DNA of 48,362 nucleotides from Rhodospirillales bacterium. GTDB taxonomy: Bacteria; Pseudomonadota; Alphaproteobacteria; ATCC43930; CGMCC-115725. Numbering within the stretch: the stretch's first letter is position 1; each line of letters opens with the position of its first letter. The translations under genes were made by a program, and so were the position numbers. Below the pieces are notes generated by a model. It made no database searches. It was not told the origin of the DNA and saw only the letters and a list, made by a program, of their open reading frames with translations. This document shows positions 3,754 through 7,669 of this stretch, piece after piece. The stretch covers positions 1 through 48,362 of the forward strand of contig DAHUYF010000194.1 in the NCBI GenBank assembly GCA_027315365.1, in the 5' to 3' direction.

Positions 3754-4560
3754 ATGGATGCACCCGCACCTTCGATCTCCATGCCGGTCCGGGCGCTGCT
3801 GCTCGGCGAGCGCCTCGATACGCGCGGGCTCGAGCGCGACGATACCATCGCCACCAACCCGCTCACGCTGCGCATCGGCCGCGACGGCATCGCCTTCCTG
3901 TTCCGCTATGGCGTCGTGGTATTCGCCGGCCTCTCGGCGATCGAGGAGGACGATGTGGTGCGCTCACTCGGGCCGCGCATCAGCGAGCCCGCCAGCGCGC
4001 CGGAGACCGACCAGCTGCAGATCCTGATCAAGTCGGGAAGCGACGATCAGGTCGATCCCTCGGGCGCCATCATCCTCAGAGAGCCTTCGCCCGAGCGGCT
4101 GCAGATCGTCGCCAACGTGCTGTCGAAAAGCCTGGTCCTGTCGCATTACGAGAGCCGGATCGCCAGCGCCTTCGACCGCATCGAGCCGCTTGCGGCCCAA
4201 CTCCAGCGTACCGGCCGAACCGGCTACCAGGCGATCCAGCTGCTGCAGCAGATCGGCGGCGTGCTGCTGACGCAGCACCGCATGGTCGGCCGCGTCGAGA
4301 TCGAGGAGAAGCCCGACGTACTCTGGGATCACCCGGAGCTCGAACGCCTCTACGCCCGGCTCGAGGACGAGTACGAGCTGGCCGAGCGCAGCCGCGGGCT
4401 GGAAGGGAAGCTCGCGCTGATCAACGAGACGGTCGGCACGATCCTCGACCTGGTGCAGAACCAGCGCAGCACCCGGCTCGAATGGTACATCATCGGCCTC
4501 ATCCTGATCGAGATCCTGCTCAGCATCGGCGACATGCTGCTGCGGCTGCGCGTCGGCTGA
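3754..4560 (+). CDS. RMND1/YagE (DUF155) family protein
   Basis: A 268-residue protein with the DUF155 layout: an N-terminal beta-rich part (ALLLGERLDTRGLE, IAFLFRYGVVVFAGLSAIEE), a long helical middle, the motif PDVLWDHPELERLY, and a C-terminal helix RLEWYIIGLILIEILLSI that forms a membrane anchor. The family includes mitochondrial RMND1 and yeast Rmd1/Rmd8; bacterial members have unknown function. I start at the ATG at 3754, because the upstream continuation of the frame has no family similarity and overlaps the promoter region. Confidence 0.88.
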   Translation: MDAPAPSISMPVRALLLGERLDTRGLERDDTIATNPLTLRIGRDGIAFLFRYGVVVFAGLSAIEEDDVVRSLGPRISEPASAPETDQLQILIKSGSDDQVDPSGAIILREPSPERLQIVANVLSKSLVLSHYESRIASAFDRIEPLAAQLQRTGRTGYQAIQLLQQIGGVLLTQHRMVGRVEIEEKPDVLWDHPELERLYARLEDEYELAERSRGLEGKLALINETVGTILDLVQNQRSTRLEWYIIGLILIEILLSIGDMLLRLRVG

Positions 4561-4596
4561 GCCGCGAGGCCGCTGGCGGCCGGTCGGATCGGCGCC

Positions 4597-4869
4597 TCAG
4601 CGCCGCCAATTCGGCCGGCGCGGCGCCGCGCTCGCGCTCGCGGCGCGCTCGTCCTTGTGACGGAAGTTGATCCGTCCCTTGGTCAGATCGTAGGGCGTCA
4701 TCTCGATCGTCACGCGATCGCCGGCCAGGATGCGGATCCGATTCTTCTTCACGCGTCCCGAGGTATAGGCCAGGGTCTCGTGCCCGTTGTCGAGGCGGAC
4801 GCGGAACCGCGCATCCGGCAGGCGTTCCACCACCGTGCCGTCGAATTCCAACATATCTTCCTTCGCCAT
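4597..4869 (-). CDS. infA: Translation initiation factor IF-1, extended variant
   Basis: IF-1 occupies the ribosomal A site during initiation. Residues 1-72 form the complete OB fold, beginning [20 protein letters not shown] and including the conserved [13 protein letters not shown] and [12 protein letters not shown] basic, Ala/Pro/Arg-rich tail of about 18 residues follows; the usual protein is about 72 residues. The gene lies 37 bases downstream of the desaturase on the same strand. Extended IF-1 copies beside cold-shock genes exist as second copies in some alphaproteobacteria, so this may not be the sole or housekeeping infA. Confidence 0.93.
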
Positions 4870-4906
4870 CTTGCCCTCCAACGTCGTTACCGGGAGCCCT
4901 CGCCCG

Positions 4907-5947
4907 TCAAGCGCGAGCCAGGGCCGCTTGGCGAAACGATACAAGTTTTCGCTGCTCTTCGTCCCATAGCGCCAACCGGACGGATCTGATGCTTGCCCAG
5001 AGCGTGAGGCGCTTGGCGCAGCGCAATTCGGGATTCTGCTCGAAACACGCCTGCAAGCGGTAATTCGGGATCTTGCTGGCGAGATGATGGATGTGGTGGA
5101 AGCCGATGGAACCGGTGAACCAGTGCAGGAACCGCGGCAGATCGTAGAACGAGCTTCCTTCGAGCGCGGCGGCATGGAAGTCCCAACCCGCCGGGCCCTC
5201 CCAATAGGTCTCTTCGAATTGGTGCTGAACGTAGAACAGCCAGACGCCGATCGAGGTCGCCAGGAGCAGGACCGCCCCCCACGCCATCAAGGAGAGCACC
5301 GGCCCGACCAGCGCGGACATGCCCGCGACGATCGCCGTGGCGGCGAGATTGGTGCCGATGACGCTGAGCCAATTCTCCCAATCGTGGATCGACATGCGAA
5401 TGGGCAGGCGATAGCGGATCAGCAGCACATAGACCGGGCCCATGCCGAACAGCACCAGGGGATGCCGGTAAACCCGGTAGAGGAATCTCCGCCAGGCCGA
5501 CCGCACCCGATATTCGGCGACGGTCAGGGTGGTGATGTCGCCGGTGCCGCGTCGGGCAAGATTGCCGGATGTCGCATGATGGACCGCATGGTCTCTCCGC
5601 CAGGAGGCAAAGGGCATCAGCGTCAACGCGCTGATCACGCTGCCGACCAGTTCGTTGGCGCGACGCGATGCGAGGAAGGAGCCGTGGCCGCAATCGTGCT
5701 GGATGATGAACAGGCGCACCACGAAGAAGGCGGCAGGCAGCGCGAAAAGCCCGGCGAGCCAATAGCCGTGGTCGAGGCCGTAGAGCAGCGCGGCCATGCT
5801 TGCCAGCAGCGGCAATGCGGTATTGACCAGCTGGATGGCGGCGCGCCGCCGATCCGGTTCGGCATAGCCGGCCAGGCGCTTGCGGAGAGCAAGCAAAGAC
5901 CGCGGGGGCCGGGGGGGATCGCTGACGCCGGGGACGGTCATCGCCAT
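4907..5947 (-). CDS. Membrane fatty acid desaturase
   Basis: A 346-residue di-iron membrane desaturase with three histidine boxes: HDCGH near residue 90, HAVHH near 125 and HHIHH near 290. Hydrophobic segments around 45-85 and 175-245 form the membrane part. It would introduce a double bond into acyl chains, most like the acyl-lipid omega-6/delta-12 group, and so raise membrane fluidity. It sits between the cold-shock gene and infA on one strand. An in-frame ATG six bases further in (5941) has better spacing to GAGG and may be the true start. Confidence 0.9.
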
Positions 5948-5978
5948 GACCTCGGACAGGAGGGCTGACAGCAGGGAA

Positions 5979-6015
5979 ACGCCGGAAAGGAAACGGGGCG
6001 GCCGTGGCCGCCCCG
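5979..6015 (-). terminator. Terminator after the cold-shock gene
   Basis: A perfect 10-bp inverted repeat, CGGGGCGGCC (5994-6003) and GGCCGCCCCG (6006-6015), lies just after the cold-shock stop. On the minus strand it is followed by TTTCCTTTCC, a broken T-tract. It separates the cold-shock gene from the desaturase. Confidence 0.7.
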
Positions 6016-6022
6016 TCGCGAG

Positions 6023-6229
6023 TCAAGCATTCTTCAGGTTGACGGCCGCGGTCTTGCCCTGTTGGCCGCGCTCGAGATCGAAGCTCACCTTCTGGCCTTC
6101 GTGAAGGCTGCCCAGGCCGGAGACCTCGACCGCCGAGATATGCACGAACACATCTTTCGACCCGTCATCCGGCTGGATGAAGCCGTAACCCTTCATGGAA
6201 TTGAACCACTTGACAGTACCTACGGACAT
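6023..6229 (-). CDS. cspA: CspA-family cold-shock protein
   Basis: A 68-residue cold-shock domain protein, [20 protein letters not shown], with both RNA-binding motifs (KGYGFI for RNP1, DVFVHISAV for RNP2). It binds single-stranded nucleic acid and melts RNA structure. The ribosome-binding site GGAGGG is well placed. A consensus promoter lies upstream and leaves a leader of about 120 nucleotides, as in cold-inducible csp genes. A terminator follows. The label cspA denotes family, not proven cold induction. Confidence 0.95.
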
Positions 6230-6357
6230 TGAGTCCCTCCAAGGAAGAAGTGCCGCGGCACGCACGCGCCACGGGTCAAAACGCGAATTTGGACGGGACC
6301 GGGACCGGCTCGCAAGAGCACAACAACGGGGCCGACCCAAGATCGATTGACCAACTA

Positions 6358-6386
6358 AATATAGCGACCAGCAGCCGTCTTATCAA
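6358..6386 (-). promoter_or_regulatory. cspA promoter, TTGATA-N17-TATATT
   Basis: On the minus strand TTGATA (6381-6386) and TATATT (6358-6363) are 17 bases apart. Transcription would begin near 6351, giving a leader of about 120 nucleotides before the cspA ATG. Confidence 0.7.
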
Positions 6387-6495
6387 TGACGAGCCGGCGG
6401 CACCGCCAAACGCCGCACCTTCGGCCGTCGGCCCAGATCGAAAATCTTATCGATTTCAACGGCGTCGCCGGCTATCGCGAGCCGTCGCCCGGCGA

Positions 6496-6681
6496 TCAGG
6501 CGAGATCGCTTTCCATGGCCATGCGCTCATGCCCGTCCATCACGGATTTGATGCGATACTGCCGGATGCCCCGCTCGCTCGGCATCACGCGAACGATCTT
6601 GAACATGCCGAGCGGCCTGGGACGAAGATCGCTGGCGACGATCTCGACGGATTGTCCGAGCTTGAACTTGTGGAGGTCCAT
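6496..6681 (-). CDS. Small conserved protein (61 aa)
   Basis: A 61-residue protein starting MDLHKFKLGQSVEIVASDLR and ending RIKSVMDGHERMAMESDL. It reads as a small beta-barrel-like domain: strand, turn, FKIVRVMPSERGIRQYRIK, acidic end. I recall short proteins with the pattern HKFKxGQxV...YRIKS...HERxxxESDL in several alphaproteobacteria, none with a known function. A GGAG precedes the ATG by about ten bases. It is the last of five small same-strand genes before the cspA promoter. Confidence 0.75.
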   Translation of the reverse strand: MDLHKFKLGQSVEIVASDLRPRPLGMFKIVRVMPSERGIRQYRIKSVMDGHERMAMESDLA

Positions 6682-6874
6682 GACGGCAGGTGCTCCTTCA
6701 GTGGCAGTAAATCAGGGCTGTCGATCCTCGGCCCCGCGCTTCAGCGCCGGCGCATGATCTTGCGATCCGTGCCGATCCGCCGGGTGCGGCGATCGTCCGG
6801 TGGCCCCGGCCCCGTCGCGCAGAGCAGCAGCGTCCCGCCGGACACGCCCGCCCGGCGGGTTGCCACGCGACCGG

Positions 6875-7087
6875 CTAATCGGCCCCATCCTCCCGCATCC
6901 GGCCACGCGGCCGATCGCGGGCATCGGGGGCGCCGGCAACCGTTCGCTCGACGGCCTCGGCTACCGGAAAATCTTTGGCGCAGTCCGAGCATCTGACCTG
7001 GACGCCCCGTTCGCGGGGAGTCGGCCAGTTGATCAACATCTTGCCGCCGCAGTGAGGGCAACGGATCTCGATGTGCTCTTTCGGCAT
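6875..7087 (-). CDS. Small zinc-ribbon protein (70 aa)
   Basis: Seventy residues starting MPKEHIEIRCPHCGGKML. Two CxxC knuckles, CPHC at about 10-13 and CSDC at about 33-36, form a zinc ribbon; the rest is a charged disordered tail (DARDRPRGRMREDGAD). Such ribbons bind nucleic acid or protein partners. I chose the internal ATG at 7087 because family similarity begins there and the upstream extension is Arg-rich noise. Confidence 0.75.
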   Translation of the reverse strand: MPKEHIEIRCPHCGGKMLINWPTPRERGVQVRCSDCAKDFPVAEAVERTVAGAPDARDRPRGRMREDGAD

Positions 7088-7146
7088 GGGGACCTCAGGA
7101 ATGCCATCCCGCCTTGAAATGGCTCGGCCTGCACGTCGGCGCCCAG

Positions 7147-7362
7147 CTAGACCTCCTCGGCATGGACATCGGCGACGGACGATCCGGGAGCGCCCCCGGC
7201 AACGGGCGAAGAGCGTGTGATGCGAACGCGCACCGGCCGCCCATCGACGGCGATCTCGAAGCACTGGCCGCACCCCGGCGCTCTGCGAAACCGGCGCAGG
7301 CCGAGCGGGCGCGCCACCGTCTCGTTCTTCATGTTCAAAAAGAGCGTCGCTTTCGTCGTCAT
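7147..7362 (-). CDS. Small hypothetical protein (71 aa)
   Basis: Seventy-one residues starting MTTKATLFLNMKNETVARPL. The ATG at 7362 has an excellent ribosome-binding site (AGGAGGAAGGTA). It contains FRRAPGCGQCFEIAVDGRPV, with a Cys-x2-Cys pair, then a strand and an acidic tail. No family is recognised. The third of five small genes in a row on this strand. Confidence 0.65.
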   Translation of the reverse strand: MTTKATLFLNMKNETVARPLGLRRFRRAPGCGQCFEIAVDGRPVRVRITRSSPVAGGAPGSSVADVHAEEV

Positions 7363-7402
7363 TACCTTCCTCCTGTCGCGGCGATGCGTTGGCGCGCTCG
7401 GG

Positions 7403-7669
7403 TCAGCACGGCGCGGCGGCATCCCGGTCGAGCGCCGCGGCGAGCTCCGCCGGGTCGATATCGACCATTTGGCCCAGCACCATGCTGGCGGGCGGTCCCG
7501 GCAGCCGGATCAGCGTGGAAACGCGCCGGTAGGCGGCGACGGAGGCGGTCGCCAGCAGCTCCTCGTCCGTCTCCACGGCATAAGATCCCGCCGGCTGCTC
7601 CTCGGCGACACCTCGCAACAGGAAGGGATGGGTGAAAGTGACGGTCCGGCTCGTCGTGCGGATGGTCAT
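7403..7669 (-). CDS. Small conserved hypothetical protein (88 aa)
   Basis: Eighty-eight residues beginning MTIRTTSRTVTFTHPFLLRG. The pattern TVTFxxPF...PAGSYAVETDEELL...AAYRRVSTLIRLP is one I recall from many short proteins of Rhizobiales and Rhodospirillales, all of unknown function. The beta-rich PAGSYxVETDEE segment suggests a compact barrel. The start at 7669 fits the conserved beginning; the frame extends upstream without coding quality. Confidence 0.75.
   Translation of the reverse strand: MTIRTTSRTVTFTHPFLLRGVAEEQPAGSYAVETDEELLATASVAAYRRVSTLIRLPGPPASMVLGQMVDIDPAELAAALDRDAAAPC

Follow-up and report, generated by a model that had tools for sequence, protein, structure and literature searches.

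A gene that lies behind another gene's transcription terminator poses a question of supply, and this question arises at a locus of a Rhodospirillales bacterium in which a cold-shock gene (csp) is followed, on the same strand, by a terminator-like hairpin, a fatty acid desaturase gene and a gene for translation initiation factor IF-1 (infA): from where are the two downstream genes transcribed? We approached it by analyzing the complete stretch of DNA that contains the locus (48,362 nt; hereafter, the window) together with related loci from other genomes. All the features described below are on the minus strand, and coordinates are those of the window.

Gene Organization of the csp Locus

The locus starts with a promoter (TTGATA-17-TATATT, 6358–6386), located with a sigma70-like scan and with a trained matrix, followed by a structured csp 5′ leader RNA (6230–6352) and by csp (6023–6229), whose deduced product is a cold-shock domain protein of 68 aa, including the methionine. 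This product matches PF00313 (E = 1.7e-25; 89.1 bits, curated cut-off 27) and contains the RNP motifs, KGYGFI and VFVHI. Directly 3′ of the csp stop codon there is a terminator-like hairpin with an interrupted T-tract (5984–6017), with counterparts in relatives, and then a gene for a membrane fatty acid desaturase of 346 aa (4907–5947; PF00487, E = 1.2e-28; 101 bits, curated cut-off 29.7), which has the three histidine boxes (HDCGH, HAVHH, and HHIHH) and whose position behind csp recurs in other genomes. The last gene, infA-L (4597–4869), codes for a long-tailed IF-1 of 90 aa (PF01176, E = 6.4e-23; 80.6 bits, curated cut-off 30.2) with a basic C-terminal tail that is common to other long forms. 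The intergenic gaps are 75 nt between csp and the desaturase gene and 37 nt between the latter and infA. The initial annotation had described a cspA gene with its promoter and a leader of around 120 nt, followed closely and on the same strand by desaturase and infA genes, and our analysis agrees with it in all these respects, the leader being of approximately 122 nt.

Because the next gene downstream, coding for a DUF155 protein, is convergent, infA should be the last gene of the unit. The same order of csp, hairpin, desaturase gene and infA is also found inside a 1.85-Mb contig of a genome from another genus of the same family (G009), which argues against an assembly artefact.

The genome of the window contains 10 cold-shock domain matches and two infA matches, corresponding to the long window copy (90 aa) and to a copy of 72 aa in another contig (G000:C40). 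In most of the long IF-1 forms (69 distinct sequences, 82–96 aa) the C terminus is a basic tail, for example RRPQFRRR, that is absent from the 56 distinct short forms. Upstream of csp, and on the same strand, there is a small ORF of 61 aa (6496–6681) without a Pfam match. Another csp gene of this genome (L005, in G000:C12) has the gene for ribosomal protein S21 (PF01165) 86 nt downstream, and the gap between them holds a large hairpin.

The Terminator-Like Hairpin behind csp Is Comparable to Those of Other csp Genes

The GC-rich hairpin at 6016–5993 has 10 pairs (−22.8 kcal/mol when folded alone; 11 pairs in a longer fold) and is directly followed by TTTCCTTTCC; the 90-nt region that contains it folds with a z-score of −2.38, and 2 of 200 shuffles were equally stable. 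It is not reported by a general terminator scan (at least 5 T in 8 nt), and it qualifies, with 9 GC pairs and the tail TTTCCTTT, under the criterion that we designate here as strict (stem of at least 6 pairs, at least 4 GC pairs and at least 4 T in 8 nt).

Interrupted T-tracts are usual behind the csp genes of relatives. A strict terminator is present behind 16 of 33 csp genes preceding infA, 4 of 8 preceding a desaturase gene and 25 of 43 others, the latter being those with no infA or desaturase gene within 260 nt and including some that precede another gene, as occurs with S21 in L005. The number of T residues and of GC pairs was alike in the three classes, and a comparison of these values across classes revealed no weakened terminator that could be a sign of regulation. 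The 10-bp terminator with a broken T-tract pointed out by the initial annotation is real as to its hairpin and its interruption, but the break is ordinary, because strength does not distinguish the terminators that precede infA from those of other csp genes. The hairpin can best be regarded as the ordinary 3′ end of a csp message with other genes behind it, and not as a specially weakened element; if so, read-through would be necessary unless hidden promoters exist.

Recurrence of csp-infA Pairs among Alphaproteobacteria

From the infA loci of 99 relatives and from the matches listed for 385 genomes sampled from the class, we collected 34 other adjacent csp-infA pairs, belonging to 33 alphaproteobacterial genomes. 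A strict terminator-like hairpin occurs in 16 of these 34 gaps. Dinucleotide shuffles of these gaps would give 2.3, and 6 of 87 same-strand gaps used as controls qualify (Fisher p = 1.6e-6, a value to be read considering that the pairs are not independent and that one family is overrepresented in the sample). Control gaps were taken from 400 kb of five genomes, with genes called by a simple script based on codon usage. At the level of genera, a strict terminator is found at least once in 10 of 16. Most of the csp-infA gaps are of 30–85 nt and, in 11 of the 16 with a strict terminator, only 17–33 nt separate the end of the stem from the infA start; the gap length of L149 (G015) is approximate, its infA start being uncertain. 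The other 18 pairs fail the strict test, two of them (G056 and G188) because csp and infA overlap and leave no room for a terminator. An overlap of this kind is seen within one genus in L259 and L266.

Excluded from this set were the window locus and the first locus of G009, where the desaturase gene lies between csp and infA, as well as L185 and L229, each with a csp-like sequence at 43% identity (the former preceding a canonical infA), L301, with a gap of 387 nt, and G006, with infA cut by the contig end.

A csp gene is found upstream of infA in 21 of the best 30 infA loci from the 99 relatives (L121–L150), including the window and G009; among the remaining nine, one is at a contig edge and one preserves a csp remnant. 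Another 60 infA loci were taken by place, of which 51 were canonical (72–73 aa), and a single one of these 51 (L185) showed an upstream csp-like domain. In the class sample, csp precedes 12 of the 34 long infA loci examined among the matches listed (22 of L241–L266, plus L287–L298). A total of 119 plasmid or chromid records had an infA match; in the four that were examined, tblastn found no csp gene within 300 nt upstream of infA, the one from Burkholderia having csp 387 nt upstream.

Association of csp with Desaturase and Helicase Genes

The csp gene is directly upstream of a desaturase gene in at least eight distinct genomes, including those of the window and G009, and four of the eight have a strict terminator behind csp. 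Among the best 80 desaturase loci, six have csp upstream, on the same strand and within 260 nt (L011, L012, L013, L018, L032, and L043), and three have it at another position in the flanking sequence (L063, L081, and L089). Of 30 further desaturase loci, four have it upstream (the window and G009, plus two duplicates of L011 and L012) and three at another position (L096, L109, and L111). The order csp, desaturase, infA was found only in the window and G009 among the loci examined; G056 contains the three genes, with the desaturase gene in convergent orientation.

We compared the 199-nt csp-infA gap of G018 with the gaps of G009 and the window, looking for a deletion scar from the gain or loss of the desaturase gene. 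This gap matches the hairpin part of the csp-desaturase gap of G009 (1% of shuffles scored as high) and, weakly, the start of the G009 desaturase gene (3% of shuffles), the other pieces being unmatched.

A DEAD-box helicase gene (PF00270) follows the desaturase gene in L011 (contig G003:C652), from the genus of the window. Additionally, infA has a DEAD-box homolog as a neighbor in 26 of 79 loci, 17 downstream and 9 upstream, in a survey that includes some duplicates and canonical infA copies and in which one helicase was checked with Pfam.

Promoters and the Loss of csp in One Genus

The csp promoter (6386–6358) was the only sigma70-like site reported within positions 4000–7500 (one found; shuffle mean of 0.4). 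A plain TTGACA/TATAAT test was uninformative, because most csp promoters were also missed by it; in its place, we used a matrix built from 29 csp promoters of relatives, with the threshold set at 10.0, the 10th percentile of the training set. The promoter from the window, which is itself part of the training set, obtained its highest score (19.7), and similar promoters are found at the same place before csp in G009 and G003. No csp-type promoter above the threshold was found in the window before the desaturase gene (score of 2.0) or before infA (5.6). A strong independent promoter at 5948–6022 had been named by the initial annotation as the observation that would speak against read-through; neither the sequence scan nor the matrix found one. 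A csp-type promoter above the threshold occurs in 3 of 32 csp-infA gaps, against a background of 2% for random sequences and of 7.6% for 79 control gaps; since promoters vary among relatives, a divergent promoter could be missed.

The distribution of infA copies bears on the same question. In eight genomes (G017, G021, G025, G026, G029, G032, G034, and G229) the sole infA match, among the matches listed, lies behind a strict terminator, although a second copy could have been missed in the poorer genomes because their stated completeness ranges from 74 to 100%. Other genomes, for instance G030, G033, G037, and G040, have one infA match behind csp, but fail the strict terminator test. The infA gene is essential in E. 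coli.

Three genomes from one genus (G039, G040, and G041) consist of a single contig and have one infA match each. In G040 the organization is promoter, leader, csp, and infA. In G042, from the same genus, a promoter, a match to the leader RNA and around 14 C-terminal codons of csp are preserved before infA, and in G039 and G041 csp is absent and infA is preceded by a similar promoter of the TATATAA type, as judged by eye. The csp losses in this genus are the best evidence that a csp promoter can drive infA. Separately, infA-L occurs without csp in G013 and G038, seemingly with its own promoters (by eye). On balance, the comparative data favor transcription of infA from the csp promoter and through the csp terminator, and the repeated, partial layout in relatives suggests that passing this stop signal may be a part of gene control.

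Proposed Read-Through of the csp Terminator and Alternative Readings

Our preferred reading, to which we assign a probability of roughly 60%, is that csp heads a cold-shock transcription unit, in which a single promoter and a single folded leader RNA would serve csp, the desaturase gene and infA-L. Most transcripts would be expected to end at the hairpin behind csp, producing a short and abundant csp mRNA, and the fraction that reads through would supply the desaturase and IF-1; with only a fraction passing, the hairpin would determine how much csp product is made relative to the downstream ones. We infer that the desaturase and IF-1 of the window come mainly from read-through, and that this increases in the cold. 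This reading is supported because gene order and hairpin recur, the leader is structured, no csp-type promoter was found downstream in the window and, where one genus has lost csp, infA is preceded by a csp-type promoter. For the same reasons, and because both the csp-desaturase and the csp-infA neighborhoods recur with their hairpins, the proposal in the initial annotation that the two genes are expressed by read-through of the csp terminator survives as the most economical one, but its T-tract is no weaker than elsewhere.

The initial annotation went further, suggesting that CspA made in the cold may itself bring about the read-through. In this special form of the reading, which we consider rather improbable, Csp, perhaps with IF-1, would melt the csp hairpin, such that read-through would rise with the level of Csp in the cold. 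In E. coli, activity of Csps and IF1 has been reported in transcription antitermination assays (PMC3017892, in part), and a strict hairpin separates csp from infA in 16 of 34 pairs. However, the terminators before infA (16 of 33) resemble those of other csp genes (25 of 43), with similar T counts, and therefore nothing marks them as special sites; besides, B. subtilis Csps are reported to be mainly pro-termination, CspB and CspD mainly favoring termination with the opposite effect at the pyr operon (PMC8307031, in part). By analogy with the E. coli proteins, antitermination by Csp at the csp hairpin is possible, with an uncertain sign of the Csp effect.

It appears unlikely that the hairpin is a 3′-end stabilizer or a processing site, with the whole unit being transcribed and the csp part then trimmed back into a longer-lived message. 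Many of the hairpins are GC-rich with poor T-tracts, and the 18 of 34 pairs that fail the strict test would fit this possibility, but 16 of the 34 csp-infA gaps, and 4 of the 8 csp-desaturase cases directly behind csp, do hold a T-tract, a frequency that matches the one found at other csp genes. The least probable alternative is that the terminator fully ends the csp transcript and that the desaturase gene and infA-L, only loosely coregulated, have unrecognized promoters of their own, as would agree with the plausible promoters of G013 and G038, with the 3 of 32 gaps above the matrix threshold and with the 22 of 34 class-sample long infA loci that, among the matches listed, lack an upstream csp, but not easily with gaps that mostly measure 30–85 nt and, in 11 of 16, have only 17–33 nt downstream of the stem, nor with a genus in which infA, once csp was lost, came to lie behind a csp-type promoter.

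Read-through from the csp promoter can also be set beside known systems. Bae 2000 and Phadtare 2007, as cited in PMC3017892, reportedly described transcription antitermination by E. coli CspA-family proteins and IF1. The csp locus shares with that system the Csp and IF1 proteins, the terminator hairpins and the cold; in contrast, the E. coli proteins were assayed on other terminators, whereas here the terminator is between csp and the downstream infA in the window, and between csp and infA in relatives. According to Giangrossi 2007, as cited in PMC6511841, E. coli infA reportedly has a cold-activated promoter. IF1 increases in the cold in E. coli (PMC6511841, in part), and the likeness lies in this raised supply; in that organism, infA has its own promoters, one of them preferentially activated in the cold (PMC6511841, in part), whereas the window infA is apparently served by the csp promoter. 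Helicases and desaturases, like Csp and IF-1, are protein types with reported links to the cold: in Caulobacter, RhlE is cold-related (PMC5472812, in part) and a fatty acid desaturase is raised in the cold (PMC8552747, in part). In titles and abstract openings, with few subscription papers covered, we found no description of an operon that joins csp to infA or to a desaturase gene and has a terminator inside it.

A doubtful extension of the preferred reading is a feedback with two antiterminators, in which Csp and the long-tailed IF-1, both RNA-melting OB-folds, would control read-through of the terminator that lies between the genes encoding them, with a new structured alphaproteobacterial csp leader RNA upstream; the helicase and desaturase genes would be attached cargo, and the only IF-1 of some lineages would depend on read-through. 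A translation-factor gene, found as sole copy in eight genomes and located behind a csp terminator of ordinary strength, offers a testable case, and such a native operon would allow testing the natural role of the antitermination by Csp and IF-1 known from E. coli assays.

A Structured Leader RNA Precedes csp

The csp leader extends for approximately 122 nt, from its predicted start at around 6351 to the ATG. An alignment of 29 leaders supports a model (R1) with four helices, with 83.4% of the cells paired: helix A (6351–6347/6279–6275), helix B (6338–6332/6306–6301; imperfect in the window), hairpin C (6320–6317/6311–6307), and hairpin D (6274–6266/6261–6253), which is followed by a GGAGG Shine-Dalgarno sequence. 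Sixteen pairs are changed on both sides, versus a mean of 9.0 in shuffles (0 of 500 as high), and the covariation score is 0.265 versus 0.154 in shuffles and up to 0.080 with the pairing slid by 1–3 columns, part of the excess for helices A–C being self-made because these were proposed from the same sequences. Hairpin D was predicted independently of manual input and shows changes on both sides in 8 of 9 pairs; helices A–C are absent from the RNAalifold prediction for the alignment. The minimum-energy fold of the window leader contains A, C, and D and is mildly more stable than shuffles (z-score of −1.50).

A covariance model of R1 gave 56 matches in 33 of the 99 relatives, of which 51 are directly before csp, one of these seen only as the first csp codons at a contig end. 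The remaining matches precede a csp pseudogene (L339) or a csp remnant followed by infA (L343), or are without csp (L335, L338, and L346). In a class sample of 289 genomes, eight were matched, three of them known from the search of relatives; of the six loci L351–L356, five have csp behind the match and L356 does not. Both searches used strict filters, with which weak matches are lost. On these counts, the family seems mainly confined to the order of the window.

The gathering-level Rfam matches in the window are two tRNAs only. As in the cspA thermoregulator (RF01766), R1 is a csp leader RNA; however, 8 of 9 csp loci match RF01766 at 20–60 bits (39.9 bits for the window csp), below the gathering score of 78, and the matches run through the coding region. 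The covarying leader is a candidate for a csp leader RNA family to be added to those known. Caulobacter cspA and cspB, according to Mazzon 2012 as cited in PMC5472812, reportedly have a long 5′ UTR with an upstream box and are subject to attenuation. The likeness of R1 to them, that of a long leader in an alphaproteobacterial csp, regulatory in Caulobacter, is by description and not by sequence; attenuation of Caulobacter cspA at optimal temperature has been reported, and the part covered of the same source does not mention a link to infA or to a desaturase (PMC5472812).

Several of these loci show further peculiarities, as judged by eye. In L339 (G035:C835), R1 and a csp pseudogene with frame breaks are followed by a small protein resembling that from the 61-aa ORF at 6496–6681, and a piece behind R1 in L338 resembles the end of S21, without a Pfam match. 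A second type of csp leader (CTTCGGC..TTGCC..AAGAACTC) seems conserved in L005, L007, and L012, and a further type (GTCGACTTTGCTACTGGGCTATC or close) is common to csp-infA pairs from three families (L230, L246, L250, and L256).
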